Shown here: positions 29,331 to 63,752 of the stretch, piece after piece
Layout: every line of letters starts with the position of its first letter
Numbering within the stretch: the first letter of the stretch is position 1
Assembly (NCBI GenBank): GCA_015227615.1
Contig: JAALGZ010000067.1
Span: 62,001 to 126,000, forward strand
Origin: Labyrinthula sp. Ha
Taxonomy: Eukaryota > Sar > Bigyra > Labyrinthulida > Labyrinthulaceae
Length of the DNA stretch: 64,000 nucleotides
Direction: 5' to 3'
The notes under the pieces: model-generated
What the model was told of the DNA's origin: nothing
Databases searched by the model: none
The model's input: only the letters and a program-made list of their open reading frames with translations
Program-made: the position numbers and the translations under genes

Positions 29331-30870
29331 TGAGCCATGTTTGGGGAGGATTGCGATAAAGAGCAGCATCTGCTTCTCTTATTCCCATGTTCTCACGTCT
29401 TGTACAGATTTTTTAAGTTTTCAAGCATGTTTGCCTTATGAATACATTGATTTTTATTAATTCCAACTGGTATGCTTTAAAAAATCTAAAACGTAAGATT
29501 AATCTTTACTTCAATCTGGCAATGATTGCCTAAACTACTCTTAAATTTGTATGTTATAATTATTTTACGGTTCGAGCCGTACTTTCTAAAGCATGTTGCC
29601 TCGTCAAAGTATCCAAAAACGTGAAACTTCAATAAAAGTAACCAATAGTGATTTCAGTAAGGACCTCAATTATTTTTTATGACAAAATAACTACCTGACT
29701 TTCATTTTCGTAAAATACCACATTCATCTTATTTCTTGGGGCTTTATCAGCTGGCGTAGAACTAGCGAAACTAGATTCTATAAAATTATTATAGTTTTGA
29801 CAATACAAATGAAATGAAGGCTTGAATCCTTCTTTATGGCAATAAATGCGTTAAATATAAGAGTTCTAGTTTCTTATGGGACATTAGTAGAACTTTTTGA
29901 CCCTTTATTTATTTTGTGTGCATAGATTTTACCCTATATGCTAGCTATATCCATTTTCGGCGGTTTTTTGAAACTCTTTTGATGGATCAAATGCTAGAAT
30001 CATCATTGTCATATATTACTACGTTGGTTTTACTGTTCGAGGTATTTTTTTTCGCTTTTCTGGGTAGTTTTCAAGTTAATAATTAGTCATTTTCCAGTTG
30101 GTCGATGGTATGACTCACTTGAAATTTCCCAAGTGTCTCTTTTACTTTTTATATTGTTGTGTTTTTTTTAAACTAAGTAATTGTCGAAAATTCCTACGTA
30201 TATTTATATTCCCCCTAAGGGTTTATTCTTTCTGTAACCATAGGTTAATCATCCCTGCTGTAGATATTAACTTAGGAATAAAAACAAAAGCAGCTATAGA
30301 CTTTGTTGCATTTCTCGTCTAAGCTTATTATATCTTCCTTAAGATGTTACGGAAATTTGACAGGATCTTCGTATTCCTTCTCAAAAATAACTACCTGCAA
30401 GTTCAAAAACTATTTTTTTTTTCGCGTTTAATAGTTAAGATTTATAAATCTTTTTCAAAACATTACAAAAGTATTAAAAACTACTAGATGATATAGTTCC
30501 ATGAATTATATGTCACGAAACAAGAGTGAAAATGTTTCTTTCTAACACCCTGCAGAACTTATAACAAAACTACAAGATGGAACCATATCATAACACTACA
30601 ATTTGGCATAATGGTTTTTTTGTTTCTAAATTTTCAGTTGTCAAGAAAAAAAAAAGCATATAAAATCTATTTTTTGTTAGTAAAGATGTAGAGATATATA
30701 AAGTAATATCTCTTATATAATTAACTATCTAAAATAATTATGATTTATCTTAGATTAAATTTTGTTTTGGTAATTTATTTGTTTTCTTTTAATGATTATT
30801 TTTATACAAAAAAAATTTTGGGCAATTAATTTATGTCTTATAATAACAAAAACAAACAAATAAAAATAAA
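29331..30870. other. Intergenic upstream of ROCO gene A
   Basis: No supported gene. The one ORF of note (30,098-30,322 plus) has no recognisable motif. The last 200 bases before the gene A start are very AT-rich, as for other gene starts in this window. Confidence 0.45.
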
Positions 30871-33432
30871 ATGATGAACTCCATTAAAGAAGAATATGAA
30901 GAAAGATATGTTAAAGAATATTTTAATATTGAATGGTATCTTAATTTATTAAATTATTCAAAGGGAATGCGATGATGAGGAGACTCCTATTAACTCAAAC
31001 AATTTCAAAAGGGAGATAGAAGAGTTGATAAAAGGGTTCCAACCAGATAAGGAAGTGTCTACTATATGGTATTCTATCTTCTTTTATCTTTATGTCAGGT
31101 TTCAATATTGCCCCTTTGATGCTGTCAAATCTATATTTGTAAGATTAATTCTTTGTTTTCCAGCTGTGAAAACACTCGTGTATTTTATTTTAGTTTCTTG
31201 ACTCTAGGTTTTCCAAATGCAGATTCAGTGATGAAAATTTTCCAAACTTTCAAAAACTTAAAAAAGTAAAACTGGATTATTTGGAGTATATTTTTTAATA
31301 TGTTTAGTTTAGGTTTGAGTATTGTAATATTCCTGAGGTGAGTTCTTTTTGCAATTTATTGAAATCAATCAGTGTAAAAGATATAGCGTAAAAATATTTT
31401 ATATTATTATTTAGACTATATAAAAGCAACTTCAGTTCAATATATATATCAAATATATTTAAAAGTTTATCTTTTAATAAAACAATTTTCAAAATAAAGT
31501 ATTTCTTATTCAAATATTGAGTTCTTAGCATTAGACAAAAGGTTCAAAATAAAGTTATTACTTCAGCTATTAAAAACTACTTCAAAACTAATAGAATAAT
31601 AAAGAGTTTAATATATGGTGGTAGCTATGGTTTTGAAAATCTCCCAGAAGAAGATATTATTGAGTTACAAGAAATAGTTGATACACATCCTTCTATTCTA
31701 GGTCTTCAAGTTTATGAAAGTTTTATTGAACCTATAGGAAAGACTAAAATGTTGAAAAAACTTGTTCATTCTGCTTTACAAAGTCAATATGAAGAAAAAA
31801 GAGTTGTTAAGAGAAGTTCCAGTTATTCTTATGGGTATTTTATTTAGTTTAGTTTTATTTTTAGGTGATGGAAGAACTGGAAAAACTTCTTTATTAAGAA
31901 ACTTATCTGGAAAAAGTTTTCAAAAAGAAACACAATCTACTTTAGTTTTAGAAGATACACAAATATTTCAGGTTGACTACAATAAGTTTAAACCACTTAC
32001 AAAATATGATCTTACTGTTCAAAGAGTAAAGAATATGTTGAAAATTCATCATAGTATTGAAGATGAAGTTCCAGAAAAGTCAAAATATGACTTGTATTTC
32101 GAAGATGAGTTGATTACAAGAACTATAAGTGAGAAAATTTTTGTTCAACAATATACAACTAATATCCGTTCAGATTTTAGAACTAATGATACTTTTTTTC
32201 GTGTTTATGATTTTGGTGGACAAGAAGTTTTTTCTTCAGTTCATCATATTTTTCTGAATAAAAAAGCTATTTATTTACTTGTTTTCAATATGACAAAGTT
32301 AAAAGAAAAAGATTTATTTAGACTAAAATTTTGGTGTAAAAGTATTTTAAGAAATACTCCAAAAGCACCTGTTTTATTTATTGGAACTTTTTTAAGCACT
32401 TTGTTAAAGAAAAATAAAACACTTGAGAATATAAATAACACAAACAAATCTTTTGTGTATAAGCTTTCTGGGAAGTTAACTATGATTGAAGATAAAGAAA
32501 CTATTTTTTTTCCTGTTGAAAACGCTGTTGATTCTAATAAGAGTCGTGAGAATAAAATAAAAAAGAAGTTAACGAGCATAGATAAGTATGGTTCAAAACT
32601 AGAAAAATTATTATATCCACATATTAGCATTAAATCTGTTTATGTATTATTTTTGGATAATTGTCGTGAAGAATCAAGTTATATGACAGTTCAAAAGTTT
32701 AAGCTAAAAGCGAAAAAGTGTAACTTTTCTGAAAAAGAAATGAATGAAATGTTAGAAATATATTCTAAAGAAGGAATTATTTCTTATTTCAAAGATATAA
32801 ATTTATCAGAAAGTGATAATTTTATATTTTTTGCACCTTCTTTTTTAGCTCAAGCTTTGGGAAGTTTTATTCGCGATGAAAGTTTTCATCAACTTGCTTT
32901 TAGAACAAATAAAAAAGTATTTTCAAACTATAGAAAATATATTGATACTGGAATAATAAGAAAAGATTTATTTGAAGCTTTATTACAACAATATACAAAA
33001 AAAGAAAGAGAATATGTTTTAAACTTAGCTTTACATATTTTAATTCTATTTGCAGATCCAACAGAAAAAAACAGTTTTATTGTTCCTGAATTACTTCCTG
33101 AAGCAAAAGATCTAAAGTTCAAATTATTCAAAGGCAAATTTAAAAAGATAGACTTTCTACAACCAGTTACAAAAACAATCTTTGTGAAAATTATTTATTT
33201 ATTCTTAAGAGAAGATAATTTGTTTAATTCTTTTATATTTAACTCGTTTTCAAGGTTTATTTTTGGGGTTGAAAGTATTTTAGATATTTACATAAATAAA
33301 GAAAATAAAATAATTTTTAACTGTATAGGCTATAAAATAAATACTTTAATATGGACACAAATTCAAAATATAGTGGAAGAATTTAATATTTTAAGCGAAG
33401 AAGTTGAAGAAGAGTTTAAAAAAAAGTATTGA
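30871..33432 (+). CDS. LRR-Roc-COR (ROCO) GTPase, gene A, with seven candidate tiny introns and one frame break
   Basis: Candidate introns: 30936-30963, 31069-31098, 31180-31207, 31286-31312, 31388-31414, 31499-31528 and 31835-31864 (27-30 nt, GTAT or GTAA at the 5' end, AG at the 3' end). Their removal opens the LRR region, for example LVFSKCRFSDENF and LEFEYCNIPEVSSF. The last exon (31865-33432) encodes Roc (P-loop GDGRTGKTS, G3 DFGGQE) and COR (FLDNCREESSYMTVQKFK to SFIRDESFHQL). ROCO proteins are signalling GTPases of the LRRK/Roco group; there is no kinase domain here. The exon at 31529-31834 is one base longer than its partner in gene B, and the extra base falls in the A-run near 31,793-31,799. 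It is either a recent lesion or a homopolymer sequencing error, because the rest is intact. The G4 motif is atypical (IGTFLST). Ends TGA, with TAA two codons later. Start: ATG 30871 or 30874. Confidence 0.8.
31835..31864 (+). other. Candidate 30-nt phase-1 intron immediately before the P-loop (gene A)
   Basis: Starts GTATTTTATT and ends TTTTTAG. It is a multiple of three and free of stops, so the ORF passes through it. Translated, it inserts ten hydrophobic residues between the beta-1 strand and the P-loop. Removed, the protein reads PVILMGDGRTGKTSLL, the normal layout of a Roc or Ras-like G1 region. The same site in gene B has a 30-nt counterpart with about five differences. Confidence 0.75.
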
Positions 33433-33652
33433 AGTTAAGAGAATTAACTTTTGATTTATACTTCAGATATTTTTTTATATACAAAACAGTCACTGATAAA
33501 ATAGTTTTCTTCGTTTAACCAAAACTCTGTTCTTTCATGTAAAAAATTCTATATTCAAAAACTTTTGCTTTACCAAGAACAATACATTCTAGAAAACTTT
33601 TCCTAGAATAACTTATCCACAGCTTAAAATCCATTCATCCACACAGCTTCGT
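33433..33652. other. Spacer between convergent ROCO A and small basic gene
   Basis: About 220 bases, AT-rich, with no gene. It must contain the 3' ends of both convergent genes; no polyadenylation signal could be assigned with confidence. Confidence 0.4.
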
Positions 33653-50214: not shown

Positions 50215-53036
50215 ATGAAATCAATTAAAGAAAAATATGAAGAAAGAGATGATAAAACAACCTTTGAAATTGAATGGTATCTTAATTAACTTAATTATTC
50301 AAAGGGAACACGATGGTGAAGAAACTCCTATTAACTCAAACAAATTCAAAACGGAGATAGCAGAGTTTGTTGAATGTTTCCAACCATATAGAGAAACGTC
50401 TTTTTTAGAGTATGCTATCTTCGTTTATCCTTATTTTAGGTTTGAACCTTTCCCATTTGACCTTGTCAAAGGGTTCCAACCTGATAAAGAAATGCCTTTA
50501 ATAGAGTATACTATTTTCTTTTATCCTTATTTTAGGTTTCCACCTTTTCGTTTTGGTCTTGTCAAAGGGTTCCAAGCAAATGAAGAAGTGTCTTCTATAA
50601 AGTATGCTATCTTCTTTTATACTTATTCTAGTTTTTTATATTGTCCATTTTATGCTGTCGAATCTATACTTATAAATTTTATTCTTTGTTTTCCAGCTGC
50701 GAAAGAACTCAAGTATTTTATTTTGTTTTCTTGACTTTAGTTTTGTGAATTGCAGATTCAGTGATGAAAACTTTCAAAACCTACACAAACTTAAAATCTT
50801 GAAACTGAATAAATTGGAGTATATATTTTTATATGTTTAGCTTAGGTATTCTTACTGTAATATTCCTGAAGTGAGTTCTTTTTGCTGTTTATTGAAATCA
50901 ATTAATGTAAAATATATAAGGTAAAAATATTTTATATTATTATTTAGACTATATCATAACAAACTCAGTGGAAAATATATATCAAATATATTTAGGAGTT
51001 TATCTTTTATTGAAACAATCTTAAAAATACAGTATATCTTATCAAAATATTGAGTTCTTAGTGTTTATGAAGATAACCAAGATAAAGTGATTCTTTCAGC
51101 TATTAAAAACTATTTGAAAACTAATAAAACAATTAGAATTTTAAGATATGGCCAATATCTATTTTCCAAACTGCTGTCAAAACAAGGTTTTCTTGAGTTA
51201 AGAGAAATAGTTGATTCACATCCTTCTATTATTTGTCTCCAAGTTTATGAAAGGTTTATTCTACCTAAAGGAAAAAGTGAAATGTTAAAAAAACTTGTTC
51301 ATTCTGCTTTACAAAGTCAATATGAAGAGATAGGTTCGTTACAAGAACTTCCAGTTATTCTTATGGGTATTTTATTCAGTTTGTTTATATATTTAGGTGA
51401 TGGAAGAACTGGAAAAACTTCTTTATTAAGAAACTTATCTGGAAAAAGTTTTCAAAAAGAAACACAATCTACTTTAGTTTTGGAAGATCATCAAATACTT
51501 CAAGTTAATGAGAGAAAGTTTAGACCGCTTACAAAATATGATCTTAGTGTTCAAAGAGTGAAGAATATGTTGAGTATTGGTTATTCATTTGAAGATGAAG
51601 TTCAAAAAGAGTCAACATATGACTTGGAATTTGAAGATGAGTTAATTACAAGAACACTAAGAGAAAAAAGTTTTGTTGAACAATATACAACTAATTATGA
51701 TTCAGGTTTCAGAACTAGAGATACTTTTTTACGTGTTTATGATTTTGGTGGACAAGAAGTTTTTTCTTCAGTTCATCATATTTTTATGAATAAAAAAGCT
51801 ATTTATTTAATTGTTTTTAATATGACAAAGTTAAATGAAAAAGATTTATTTAGACTTAAGTTTTGGTGTGACAGTATTTTAGGAAATACTCCAAAAGCAC
51901 CTGTTTTATTTATTGGAACTTATTTAAATACTTTTCTAAAGAAAAATAAAAGCCTTGAGAATATGAACAACAAGATTAAGTACTTTCTATCTAAGCTTTC
52001 TGGGAAGTTAACTATTGTTGAAGATATAAGAACTATTTTCTTTCCTGTTGAAAATGCTATTGATTCTAATATGAGTCGTGAAAAGGCAATAAAAGTGAAG
52101 TTAATGAGCATAGGGAAATATAAATCAAAGTTATATGACTTATTAAATCCATTTATTTGGATTAAATCTGTTTATGTATTATTTTTGGATAATTGTCGAG
52201 AAGAATCAAGTTATATGACAGTTGAAAAGTTTAAACTAAAAGCTGAAAAATGTAACTTTTCTGAAGAAGAAATGGAAGAAATGTTAGAAATATATTCTAA
52301 AGAAGGAATTATTTCTTATTTCAAAGATATAAATTTATCTGAAAGTGAAAACTTTATATTTTTTGCACTTTCTTTCTTTGCTCAAGCTTTGGGAAGTTTT
52401 ATTCGCGATGAAAGTTTTCATCAACTTGCTTTTAGAACAAACAAAAAGGTATTTTCAAACTATAGAAAATATATTGATACTGGAATAATAAGAAAAGATT
52501 TATTTGAAGTTTTATTACAACAATATACAAAAAAAGAAAGAGAATATGTTTTAAATTTAGCTTTACATAGTCTAATTTTATTTGCAGATCCAAGAGAAAG
52601 AAATTCTTTTATTGTTCCAGAATTGCTTCCTGAAGTAAAAGATTCAAAATTAAAAATATCTTTGACTCCTGATTTAGTGTGGAAAACAGATAATCCAATT
52701 ACAAGACAAAAGTTTCTGCAAATTGTTTTTATTTTCTTTAGCCACAAAAAGTTTCAAGATTCATTTTTATACAAGTTCTTTTCTAGAATAATTTTTGGTC
52801 CTGATGAAATACTTGATATATTTCTGATTAAGGAAAAAGAACTTGGTTTTAGATTTATTGGAACAGAAAGAGATGGTTTTCTGGTAAGCTTTATACAGCA
52901 GTTGATTGAAGAAAGTAATGTGAATAAACAAGTAGAAGAAATCTTTCACCCTGAAAAGCCAAAGAAACCTCGCTTTCAAAGAGTAAGACGGATATTTTAT
53001 CAGATGAGAAATATTTGGACTGATTTTAAGGGTTAA
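50215..53036 (+). CDS. LRR-Roc-COR (ROCO) GTPase, gene B, intact with nine candidate tiny introns
   Basis: Candidate introns: 50277-50304, 50410-50439, 50506-50535, 50602-50631, 50713-50740, 50819-50845, 50921-50947, 51032-51061, 51367-51396. Their removal leaves exactly 2,562 nt, 853 codons plus TAA, with no stop. Residues about 20-205 are leucine-rich repeats, each on its own exon (LNFVNCRFSDENFQNLHKL, LEYSYCNIPEVSSF). A helical linker (206-305) leads to Roc: P-loop GDGRTGKTS near 308-316, G3 DFGGQE near 422. COR follows (FLDNCREESSYMTVEKFK to SFIRDESFHQL). There is a basic C-terminal tail (KPKKPRFQRVRRIFYQM). There is no kinase. G4 is IGTYLNT where Roc domains usually have a GTHxD-like motif, so guanine specificity may be altered. 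It starts 104 bases right of the LTR remnant, so its promoter probably includes LTR-derived DNA. It is 70-80% identical to gene A by eye. Confidence 0.88.
50410..50697 (+). repeat. Tandem 96-bp LRR exon + intron units in gene B
   Basis: The 30-nt introns begin at 50410, 50506 and 50602, exactly 96 bp apart, and alternate with 66-nt exons encoding FEPFPFDLVKGFQPDKEM- and FPPFRFGLVKGFQANEEV-type LRR units. Gene A has a single such intron (31069) where gene B has three. All are phase 2, so whole exon+intron units can be gained or lost without changing the frame. Confidence 0.85.
51367..51396 (+). other. Candidate 30-nt phase-1 intron immediately before the P-loop (gene B)
   Basis: Starts GTATTTTATT and ends ATATTTAG. 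It has the same position, length and phase as in gene A. Removal joins PVILM to GDGRTGKTSLL. Because it is in frame and stop-free, automatic annotation would leave it in. Confidence 0.75.
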
Positions 53037-60881: not shown

Positions 60882-62255
60882 TCAATGTACCGTTATACTA
60901 ACGGAAAGTCTATACTTCAGACGTAACAACTCACCAGGGTCTTTTTTATCTTGTCTAATGACGTGTTCTAATGATTCTTTACTGACCATACCACCAGTAG
61001 AGAGAACAAACGGTTGAAATTGACCACCAAAATCTAGTCCAGTGTTTTCTCTGTTCTTGGATGCTACTCTTTTCCTTAAGACATTTTCGGCTAACCTAAG
61101 CAAAATTGAAGACTCTCTGGAATCATTGTTTAAACATAGAGAAGCCAAAGCTTCCCTCAGAGAATCAAAGATTCTAAAATTCTTTTTAGATGTAAGAGAA
61201 ACAACAGAAACATCAAATGCGGTTTTTCCTTGTGTAGTAGAAATTAAAAGATCAGCTCTTCGATTGTTGTTCTTGCTAAATGGCTCTAGTGAAATAACAC
61301 AGTTTGTTTCTTTAAAAAAATCAGCTAAACACTTTTTAATGTCTTCATGTCGTGAAACCTTAACTTGAGAAAAACATGAACAGTGCTCAAAATGGTTGAT
61401 TCTGTCCTCAGAGCAGCCATTCCTACAGCTAGGTGAAAGAAGTAATCTAGAGCAAATTGATGCACAGAAATCTGGATTTAGAATTCTAGTTGAAGCCTCT
61501 ACGGGAAGTGCATGCAACCATTTAGAACCAATTTCAGTAGAGTTTTCCGCAAAACAAAGTTTTTCAAAGTCATTGAATGAATTAAAGAGATTGTTCATGA
61601 TTTGTTTGTAAGCATCTTTGAGTCTACTAGACTGCTTAACCACATCGAGCTCAGAATGAAAATTTTCAGATTCCATTTGTCGCTCAGAAAGTTCTTTGCT
61701 TGCCTGGAAACCATGATGAGAGATTAACGAAGGAGACATTAGCCCTAATCCACCATTGCCAATGGGTAAATGCATTAAATCAGAATTGAACTGTGTAAAG
61801 GAAGACTTTGAAGTCAAGAATTGAATGAATGAGTTGATTGAGGAATGTAGCTTTTGACATTGTCTGGCATCGACAGGTGTTGTTCGTAGAAAAAAAATAA
61901 GTTGAGGAAGGACACATGTCCGTAACAGGTAAAATGCATCTTGATGATGTAAGAGTTTAAGTTTTTCTAGTTTTAAATTGAAGTCATCTAAGTGTTTGTT
62001 GAAGAGTGTTTCATTTTGAGAGAGTGTTGAGCCAAGAAACTGGTCTTCATTAGAGCTAGAAAATATTTTTGTCTTTTCACTACAGAGTTTTAGATGTGAT
62101 GATATTTCAAAAGAGGTAAACACATCTTGAACTTTCTTGATTAACATTGTTTCATCAGAAATTTTGGAAAAGATTACTAGATCATCCAAGTAACTAAAAA
62201 CTTCATCTTCGGGTAGGGCTTGTTTTAGTTTTTGAATGATTGGACTAAGTGCAAT
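60882..62255 (-). CDS. LINE ORF continuation: RT catalytic site, thumb and restriction-like endonuclease
   Basis: In the same frame as the preceding segment. The RT active-site block is YLDDLVIFSK (about 62,180). A CCHC-type zinc motif (CRNGCSEDRINHFEHCSC, about 61,390-61,430) is followed by the endonuclease signature: RHEDIKKCL, then RADLLI and FDVSVVS, equivalent to the R-x-D...D core of restriction-like LINE endonucleases. The proline of the usual RPD is Ala here. Ends at TGA (60882-60884). If that TGA were read through, a TAA follows about 13 codons later. No sign of the APE endonuclease. Confidence 0.85.
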   Translation of the reverse strand: MALSPIIQKLKQALPEDEVFSYLDDLVIFSKISDETMLIKKVQDVFTSFEISSHLKLCSEKTKIFSSSNEDQFLGSTLSQNETLFNKHLDDFNLKLEKLKLLHHQDAFYLLRTCVLPQLIFFLRTTPVDARQCQKLHSSINSFIQFLTSKSSFTQFNSDLMHLPIGNGGLGLMSPSLISHHGFQASKELSERQMESENFHSELDVVKQSSRLKDAYKQIMNNLFNSFNDFEKLCFAENSTEIGSKWLHALPVEASTRILNPDFCASICSRLLLSPSCRNGCSEDRINHFEHCSCFSQVKVSRHEDIKKCLADFFKETNCVISLEPFSKNNNRRADLLISTTQGKTAFDVSVVSLTSKKNFRIFDSLREALASLCLNNDSRESSILLRLAENVLRKRVASKNRENTGLDFGGQFQPFVLSTGGMVSKESLEHVIRQDKKDPGELLRLKYRLSVSITVH

Positions 62256-63752
62256 TCAGAAGAGTAAAGGGCCTAAGGGATCACCTTGTCTTACACCAGA
62301 TGTTGAATGCAAGAAACTACCATCGCCTAAGAAAAGTTTTACAGCTGAGCCGTAACTCCAGTTAAATGTCCTGCACAGTAGTTTACATCTTTGCTTAATT
62401 TCTTTCATTAAAAAATTTCTAGAAACCGAATTAAAAGCATTTTTAAGATCAAATGTAAAAACTTTAAGTCCATCAGAAATCTGTTTTCGAGCATGATGAA
62501 TCAAAGGTTCTACTCCACCAATTGATCCACAGCCTAGTTGGTTAAAAAGTAAGGAATTCGGTAACATGTGCAAAATTCCTTTCACTGCAATGTGGTAAAA
62601 GATTTCTCTAATTGCAATGGGCCGCAGACCACCAGAGGGTTTCTTGAGAACAATTAGTCTAGAGGTAGTTAACGCTTCCTTAAAAAGTTGAGTTCCTTTT
62701 GAAATGTCCATCATTAGGAGTTGCAAAAATTTTGTAAATGAGTCCAGGTGCTTAATTGTTTTAAGTAAGGTGCCGTCAAATCCTGAGATCCCACCTGCAG
62801 TGTCGGTAGAAAATTGGTTACAAATGATTTTAACAAAGTCAAGGGAGAAATTTAGATTAGAAATGGGTAAGTTCTTCCAAGTGGAAAGTTGTTCAAAGGG
62901 ATGTTTTTCAATGAGTTGCTGCCTTAGCTCTGAAGAAAAATCAAATTCAATCTGCGAATCATCATCAGAGAGAGCTCTAGAGGCTCTTTTAATCTTCCTA
63001 AGTTTAAGTAGATGATTTACTTTAGTTTTCAAGTCAGTGTTCTTAGAAGAAAATGATGCATTAAAAGATGCATGTAAAGCAGACGCGTCTAAATTGTTTG
63101 GAAATGAGGTAGCATTCTTTCTAAATTGTGAGATCTTGTTTTTGGTAACAATTGCATTAGCCGCAAGCTTAGGTAAACAAAGGATTTTGAGCAACTTGAT
63201 TGCAGTGGGTGATTGGTTGTAATCATTACAGAGTGTGTTAAAAGTTTTAGAAAATATTTTGGTTTCAGTAAGATTAAGTGAAGTGTCTTTTCGTGGAAGC
63301 CGTGCCAAGAAATTTAGAGAGTTAGAAAGAGCAAGAGAGGAGGGTTGTTCCTCTTGTAAGACATCTAGTAGGAACTTAAACTCCGAAAGTAAGAATCTTC
63401 CATCTTCGGTTTCGATGGTTTCAGTTGTTGTTAAATCATCCTCAGTTAGGCTAGAAAATGAATTTTTTGAGAGAGGTGATAGTGCGAAGCTTAGTGTTTT
63501 ATTGTGTTGAATAGTTTCAGGTTGAATAAAAGTTGTAACTGGAGTAGAAGCATTAGAAGATTCAACATCCAAGGCAAGTTTGCAGTAGCGAGCATGATGT
63601 GGCAAACTCTTAACCACACGACCACATCGACACTTTTTGAGGTCATAATCAGCAAGAACCTCAGTTGTAAAGCAATTTTGATGTCTCTTCAGTAGGTGTT
63701 CATGAATATTTTTATAGGTATTTTTACAGAAAGGACAAGTACTACAGACCAT
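62256..63752 (-). CDS. LINE ORF, N-terminal zinc fingers and reverse transcriptase palm/fingers
   Basis: Starts at ATG 63752 (MVCSTCPFC). Two zinc-finger-like motifs lie in the first 60 residues: CPFCKNTYKNIHEHLLKRH, and CRCGRVV-HHARYC. The middle is a low-motif linker. RT motifs follow: KKPSGGLRPIAI, GCGSIGGVEPLIHHAR, FTFDLKNAFNSVSRNF (catalytic Asp in FDLKNAF) and GVRQGDPLGPLLF. The frame meets TGA at 62256-62258, right after LLF. It continues open in the same frame (IALSPIIQKL) into the next segment, so this is one protein with one interruption: a nonsense change, read-through, or recoding. Confidence 0.88.
   Translation of the reverse strand: MVCSTCPFCKNTYKNIHEHLLKRHQNCFTTEVLADYDLKKCRCGRVVKSLPHHARYCKLALDVESSNASTPVTTFIQPETIQHNKTLSFALSPLSKNSFSSLTEDDLTTTETIETEDGRFLLSEFKFLLDVLQEEQPSSLALSNSLNFLARLPRKDTSLNLTETKIFSKTFNTLCNDYNQSPTAIKLLKILCLPKLAANAIVTKNKISQFRKNATSFPNNLDASALHASFNASFSSKNTDLKTKVNHLLKLRKIKRASRALSDDDSQIEFDFSSELRQQLIEKHPFEQLSTWKNLPISNLNFSLDFVKIICNQFSTDTAGGISGFDGTLLKTIKHLDSFTKFLQLLMMDISKGTQLFKEALTTSRLIVLKKPSGGLRPIAIREIFYHIAVKGILHMLPNSLLFNQLGCGSIGGVEPLIHHARKQISDGLKVFTFDLKNAFNSVSRNFLMKEIKQRCKLLCRTFNWSYGSAVKLFLGDGSFLHSTSGVRQGDPLGPLLF

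Follow-up and report, generated by a model that had tools for sequence, protein, structure and literature searches.

Probable ultra-short spliceosomal introns in ROCO genes and some housekeeping genes of Labyrinthula sp. Ha

We analyzed a 64,000-nucleotide (nt) stretch of the Labyrinthula sp. Ha genome (the window; G000:C118:62001-126000 of the 50.84 Mb in 153 contigs that we searched), which carries two paralogous ROCO genes, here called gene A and gene B (Table 1). The A+T content of the window is about 69%, lower than the 80.65% of Anaeramoeba ignava (PMC11550330), and Anaeramoeba was set aside as a candidate source on this ground. An earlier note, made from the letters alone, had described the upstream half of gene A as full of stops unless seven GT...AG segments of 27-30 nt are skipped, and had read these segments as ultra-short spliceosomal introns in the leucine-rich-repeat (LRR) half of the gene. 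We aligned the proteins P0004, P0005, P0009 and P0014 with splicing to positions 30,701-33,500, with the aligner set to GT-AG only. All four references returned the identical seven GT-AG segments that the note had described, of 28, 30, 28, 27, 27, 30 and 30 nt. Left unspliced, positions 30874-31864 hold 18, 33 and 18 stops in the three forward frames. The note had counted one segment whose length is not a multiple of three; there are two, both of 28 nt. Introns 1-6 are in phase 2 and intron 7 is in phase 1. At the extreme end of the gene, two of the four alignments each contain one extra event, a 53-nt intron in one case and a frame change in the other, which we take to be alignment end artefacts. 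All four also require a single-base frame change near 31797, which lies in a coding, A-rich stretch and is not an intron; this disruption may be a true lesion or an assembly error. Frame changes or stops are also present in several other ROCO copies.

Table 1 Coordinates of the two ROCO genes, their putative introns and the tandem array, in positions of the window.
Feature	Position	Strand	Basis
ROCO gene A (LRR-Roc-COR), 8 exons	30874..33432	+	spliced alignment to four paralogs; Pfam Roc and COR-A
Gene A intron 1, 28 nt, phase 2	30936..30963	+	spliced alignment
Gene A intron 2, 30 nt, phase 2, at LRR strand; stop-free in frame if retained	31069..31098	+	alignment, structure model
Gene A intron 3, 28 nt, phase 2, at LRR strand	31180..31207	+	alignment, structure model
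Gene A intron 4, 27 nt, phase 2, at LRR strand	31286..31312	+	alignment, structure model
Gene A intron 5, 27 nt, phase 2, at LRR strand	31388..31414	+	alignment, structure model
Gene A intron 6, 30 nt, phase 2, at LRR strand	31499..31528	+	alignment, structure model
Gene A intron 7, 30 nt, phase 1, directly before Roc P-loop; stop-free if retained	31835..31864	+	alignment; MAKER model P0001
ROCO gene B, paralog, intron sites as in gene A	50215..53036	+	MAKER model P0013 maps exactly, from 50155
Gene B intron 1, 28 nt	50277..50304	+	alignment and MAKER model
Tandem array, period 96 bp, 2.7 copies	50378..50635	+	Tandem Repeats Finder (TRF)
Gene B intron 2 copy a, 30 nt	50410..50439	+	inferred from sequence and array
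Gene B intron 2 copy b, 30 nt	50506..50535	+	MAKER model P0013
Gene B intron 2 copy c, 30 nt	50602..50631	+	two of three references
Gene B intron 3, 28 nt	50713..50740	+	alignment; inside MAKER 346-nt intron
Gene B intron 4, 27 nt	50819..50845	+	alignment; inside MAKER 346-nt intron
Gene B intron 5, 27 nt	50921..50947	+	alignment; 3' end is that of MAKER 346-nt intron
Gene B intron 6, 30 nt	51032..51061	+	MAKER model and two of three references (third: 114-nt intron instead)
Gene B intron 7, 30 nt, before P-loop	51367..51396	+	alignment and MAKER model

Gene B is the paralog that the earlier note had placed at 50.2 kb, with introns at the same sites and of the same lengths. The sites and lengths do agree, and site 2 is tripled in a 96-bp tandem array. 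Spliced alignment of gene B used three references, and introns 1, 3, 4, 5 and 7 were recovered with all of them. At site 2 the alignment passes over material, because the references hold one repeat where gene B holds three. Each unit of the array consists of 66 coding bases (22 residues, an LRR segment) followed by a 30-nt intron, and the array looks like a recent duplication of an LRR unit plus its intron. The MAKER model P0013 agrees with our reading at introns 1, 2b, 6 and 7 and differs elsewhere; at copy a of site 2 it has a 42-nt intron (50398-50439) with an identical 3' end.

The ROCO identity given in the earlier note is supported by Pfam, which detects Roc (66.9 bits) and COR-A (37.9 bits) above cut-off in the open reading frame (ORF) of gene A. 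COR-A scores 30.8 against a cut-off of 35.3 in gene B, and falls slightly below the cut-off in P0004 too. Pfam found no LRR in six spliced paralogs. The AlphaFold2 model of spliced P0004 (mean pLDDT 80.5) shows repeated strand-helix units as far as about residue 230, and in structure comparisons it matches LRRK1, LRRK2 and Roco proteins, with its N-terminal half matching RanGAP (1yrg) and ribonuclease inhibitor (2bex). The predicted fold thus places an LRR domain in the N-terminal half of the protein, in line with what the note had read from the letters. Compared with Chlorobium Roco, LRRK1, LRRK2 and Methanosarcina Roco2, the Labyrinthula ROCO proteins are without a kinase domain in Pfam scans, and they differ further in their number, with at least 83 matches scored in this single genome. 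When phage sequences, contigs of prokaryote genomes and viral contigs were searched, no relative of the ROCO ORF turned up. Among 7999 word-sharing candidates scored in EukProt there were 129 relatives, and the 120 listed all bear MAKER/SNAP names, which we take to denote the Labyrinthula genome itself.

When the introns are projected onto the P0004 model, a regular register appears. Introns 2-6 split residues 56, 83, 109, 134 and 162, which fall within the predicted strands 54-58, 81-85, 105-111, 130-136 and 160-165, in phase 2 throughout. Intron 1 (residue 21) lies just after strand 16-20, and strands 188-193 and 220-223 are intron-free in the clade of genes A and B. Because the phase-2 register recurs in five successive LRR strands and gene B carries the 96-bp array, we infer that introns 2-6 probably multiplied with the repeats, through tandem duplication of intron-bearing LRR units. 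Animals and plants have some LRR genes in which each repeat carries one phase-2 intron. The Labyrinthula genes resemble them in having phase-2 introns at a fixed place in the repeat, but differ in that the introns are only 27-31 nt long and that, in gene B, a repeat is tandemly copied together with its intron.

We then aligned 30 of the 83 scored ROCO matches (loci L001-L030) and counted an intron if it measured 15-40 nt and lay no more than two residues away from a site. The seven sites are occupied in 196 of 210 cells, leaving 14 empty (26, 28, 29, 28, 29, 26 and 30 of the 30 paralogs, from site 1 to site 7), and 190 of the 196 introns are 27-31 nt long, the remainder measuring 22, 25, 26, 32, 33 and 35 nt. 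We also counted insertions and deletions (indels) by aligning the DNA of 24 copies with that of a single reference copy, after leaving out five of the 29 (L013, L015, L023, L027 and L028) that are truncated, disrupted or tandem-duplicated. Indels that are not multiples of three make up 33 of 39 inside the segments versus 4 of 16 in exons, where one of the four adjoins site 4; the associated p value (Fisher, 4e-5) is overstated because related copies share indels. These data bear on the view that the segments are translated, or that the 5' half is a decayed pseudogene, with GT-AG pairs that arise by chance in AT-rich DNA mimicking introns. The single-base disruption in gene A and the frame changes or stops in several copies speak for this view; moreover, segments 2 and 7 stay open if retained, and the P-loop region with segment 7 retained still matches Roc. 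Against it stand the identical sites in 30 copies and the concentration of non-triplet indels in the segments, together with two observations described below, namely loci whose P-loop is uninterrupted and introns of this size class in the conserved CCT genes. We consider this explanation very improbable.

The likeness of the introns in genes A and B carries less weight than the earlier note had given it. The note had argued that introns preserved in both copies while coding positions diverge speak against chance. The distance measured for the intron cores is 0.157, compared with 0.153, 0.170 and 0.155 at fourfold-degenerate sites, and this test did not bear out unusual conservation of the introns. 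Since the cores diverge about as much as fourfold-degenerate sites, the likeness mostly reflects recent paralogy, which leaves the argument from preservation weak. The core distance is below the Nei-Gojobori pS of 0.22-0.30, which leaves room for mild constraint on the cores. Mean pN/pS over 29 of the 30 loci (L027 left out) is 0.46 in Roc, 0.52 in COR and about 0.74 in the LRR half, so the selection test of the LRR half gave no value above 1.

Intron 7 can be judged by the Roc P-loop that it precedes. Among four loci read in a second ROCO clade, the P-loop is uninterrupted in L071-L073, and L074 has a 27-nt intron there. We compared gene A pieces of 170 and 157 residues with the archaeal Roco structure 4wnr. 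The spliced version scores 22.2 bits at the P-loop, with a match that begins upstream of the P-loop strand, whereas the unspliced version scores 14.0 bits, with a match from the P-loop strand on only. Because the P-loop survives in either version, this comparison lends mild support only. Another possible reading is that some introns, although real, are deliberately retained, with retention of intron 7 giving two isoforms. Retained intron 7 would insert ten mostly hydrophobic residues and keep GDGRTGKT intact. It is 30 nt long in 27 of the 30 copies, 26 of these 27 being free of in-frame stops, and the same is true of 24 of the 25 triplet-length copies of intron 2, such that the frame stays open in most copies if either is retained. 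Across all sites, 112 of the 196 introns are multiples of three and 58 of these lack an in-frame stop, although as copies of six sites they are non-independent. The remaining three copies of intron 7 are 31 nt long and would break the frame on retention. Overall, we give regulated retention only a slim chance.

To place the ROCO introns in the context of the genome, we turned to conserved genes. For eight CCT loci, the analysis admitted introns up to a length of 200 nt and retained those supported by no fewer than three quarters of the 7-8 references (P0123, P0151, P0125, P0220, P0228 and P0234, plus the proteins of L034 and L037 themselves). This gave 15 well-supported introns in four genes, 14 of them 28-32 nt long. 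An A stands at position -8 in 12 of the 14 short introns, against 3.1 expected and a yield of 0 in 2000 shuffles, and this signal is independent of the reading frame. With P0151, which comes from another organism (Pythium), CCT-beta shows six introns of 29, 28, 31, 29, 28 and 30 nt; P0123 (Aplanochytrium) and P0125 each shift one boundary. When 40 of the 256 possible pairs of boundary dinucleotides were tried on CCT-beta, GT-AG scored highest (1868), followed by 1816 for the next pair, a median of 1745 and 1557 without any intron. A preliminary set, superseded by the fixed-rule count above, comprised 17 introns (28-32 nt) hand-picked from 32 candidates with at least two votes and a maximum of 40 nt (15 were dropped); A stands at -8 in 13 of them, a position that had already been noticed on a list of 15 introns. 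An AAA gene, which we read as Rpt1-like, carries a 31-nt intron. A narrow length peak near 30 nt is therefore found across unrelated genes, namely CCT, the Rpt1-like AAA gene and two ROCO clades, in a sample of few genes.

The genome also carries U2 and U6 genes and a near-threshold U1. In searches for small nuclear RNAs (snRNAs), U2 (117 bits) and U6 (59.9 bits) lie above their cut-offs, the latter as a single candidate (L053; G000:C46:223545-223653, minus strand). U1 candidates, at 66.2, are slightly under the cut-off of 69.5; they start with ATACTTACCTG, which we take to be the canonical U1 start. A search for U12 snRNA, run without a positive control, found none. U1 and U2 genes occur as pairs about 4.6 kb apart, in two mirror-image pairs on G000:C96:200293-222920 and one on C135:72694-77477. 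5S rRNA genes form regular arrays on C72, C120 and C80 of the same assembly, with a spacing of about 2,206 bases on C72 and 2,021 bases on C120. The canonical U6 box is ACAGAGA, and the sole U6 found has ATAGAGA. G at position +5 of the intron is scarce, in about 2% of 191 ROCO introns and in 4 of the 17 hand-picked CCT introns, and the consensuses of the ROCO sites have an A at -7, -8 or -9. The GT-AG ends, the branch-type A and the snRNA genes all fit a spliceosome, and 27-31 nt is below the size of group I and group II introns, which are larger. We found no point in favor of removal by a non-spliceosomal route and hold it to be extremely improbable.

Taken together, the sites fixed in 30 paralogs, the non-triplet indels, the loci with uninterrupted P-loops, the CCT introns with A at -8, the snRNA genes and the MAKER annotation make it highly probable that all seven segments belong to an ultra-short class (mostly 27-31 nt) of U2-type spliceosomal introns, which is also present in some housekeeping genes of this AT-rich genome, and the reading of the earlier note remains the best one. 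As to the annotation, 14 of the 120 EukProt proteins listed map to the 30 loci with introns, and 56 of their 62 introns are 22-31 nt long. The MAKER quality index (QI) fields, which we take to give the share of transcript-confirmed splice sites, read 0.71 for P0016 and 0.33 for P0013 (gene B), with the individual sites unspecified. We suggest that the spliceosome would remove these segments by intron definition, in a near-minimal geometry in which the branch A would lie 7-9 nt from the intron end and about 18-24 nt from the 5' splice site.

Several observations weigh against this reading. The transcript support is second-hand, coming through QI fields rather than from reads. The MAKER model of gene A (P0001) splices intron 7 only, because it begins at 31,789, and that of gene B fuses introns 3-5 into a single 346-nt intron starting at 50602. 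The four ROCO proteins that were aligned to gene A come from ab initio prediction by SNAP and have an annotation edit distance (AED) of 1.00, that is, with no transcript support, which makes the alignment to them partly circular. Introns 2 and 7 of gene A have no in-frame stop if retained. Outside the ROCO family, the 15th CCT intron is 61 nt long (31 nt, with its 3' end unchanged, when the maximum length is 40 nt), and one CCT-beta intron of 46 nt is supported by 5 of 8 references. Four of the eight CCT genes have no well-supported intron. An intron of about 127 nt interrupts the mitochondrial HSP60 gene, HSP70-like loci contain long open frames, and all 14 proteasome matches are stop-free, although stopless triplet introns would go unnoticed there. 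Finally, a de novo gene finder yielded little above control dinucleotides. In 26 non-ROCO loci (94 kb) it returned 6 GT-AG introns of 25-34 nt under a looser penalty, compared with 0-2 in seven control pairs, and 3 compared with 0-2 under a stricter penalty, which gives it too little power; on the window, where the frame was wrong for one of its nine training ORFs, it found one 28-nt intron in a weak gene. The ultra-short class does extend beyond the ROCO genes, and introns in this genome look sparse and are not all tiny. Given the CCT genes without a well-supported intron, the long frames of the HSP70-like loci and the stop-free proteasome matches, any genome-wide claim rests on few genes. 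Elsewhere in the window, the minus strand at 60882-63752 carries ORFs of what is perhaps a retroelement: a reverse transcriptase domain lies at 62256-63752, and 60882-62189 gives a weak match to a CoiA-like nuclease.

Blastocystis, a stramenopile of the Bigyra, is the closest known system in intron size, and the comparison drawn in the earlier note is apt, since both organisms share the length class of about 30 nt and GT-AG ends. One Blastocystis study reports that the modal intron measures 30 nt in each of three subtypes, where this length accounts for 54, 36 and 21% of introns, that 98.3% of the introns of subtype ST1 have standard GT-AG ends, and that genes average 4.6-6.5 exons (PMC5608401); another gives a median intron of 31 nt for subtype ST7 (PMC3129679). 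Labyrinthula differs in that many of the sampled housekeeping genes have no visible intron and one has an intron of about 127 nt. Ciliates, a separate lineage, likewise possess very small spliceosomal introns: those of Paramecium and Nyctotherus are about 25 nt long (PMC5014332), and those of Stentor are called exceptionally small (PMC9505925). Ciliate introns whose length is a multiple of three are underrepresented and often contain in-frame stops (PMC5014332), whereas in the Labyrinthula ROCO genes such introns form the majority counted above and about half of them are stop-free.

The placement of this genome was approached through CCT-beta. The protein is 72% identical to that of Aplanochytrium stocchinoi, the highest value among the named matches listed, and two long plant proteins (60 and 58% identity) outscore it. 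A tree built from the query and 26 of the 120 proteins listed places the query, on a long branch, together with two Aplanochytrium rows (95/100), in what is a single-gene result. Aplanochytrium is placed in the Labyrinthulomycetes, within the Bigyra. The 120 matches listed do not include the MAKER model of CCT-beta from this genome itself. Joining these strands, one could imagine a narrowly sized class of 28-31-nt introns that is ancestral in the Bigyra, common to labyrinthulids and Blastocystis, and determined by an invariant branch geometry (A near -8), with drift of the U6 box to ATAGAGA accompanying the loss of G at +5 in this lineage and with the LRR-family introns spread by tandem duplication of a repeat plus its intron. 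We regard this combined scenario as speculative and rather doubtful as a whole.

Among the titles and abstract beginnings of the open-license papers listed we recognized no report on labyrinthulid introns, and one may well have been published elsewhere. Ultra-short introns as such are already known; what may be new to specialists is their probable occurrence in a labyrinthulid, the regular position of the branch-type A and the register of introns with LRR strands. Labyrinthula would probably join Blastocystis as a second lineage of the Bigyra whose introns approach the lower end of the sizes known for spliceosomes, and a second lineage makes it testable whether tiny introns are ancestral in this group or arose twice. 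The nearly 200 related tiny introns of a single gene family allow length and branch position to be compared, and gene B offers an example of an intron that was apparently copied via tandem duplication of an LRR unit.

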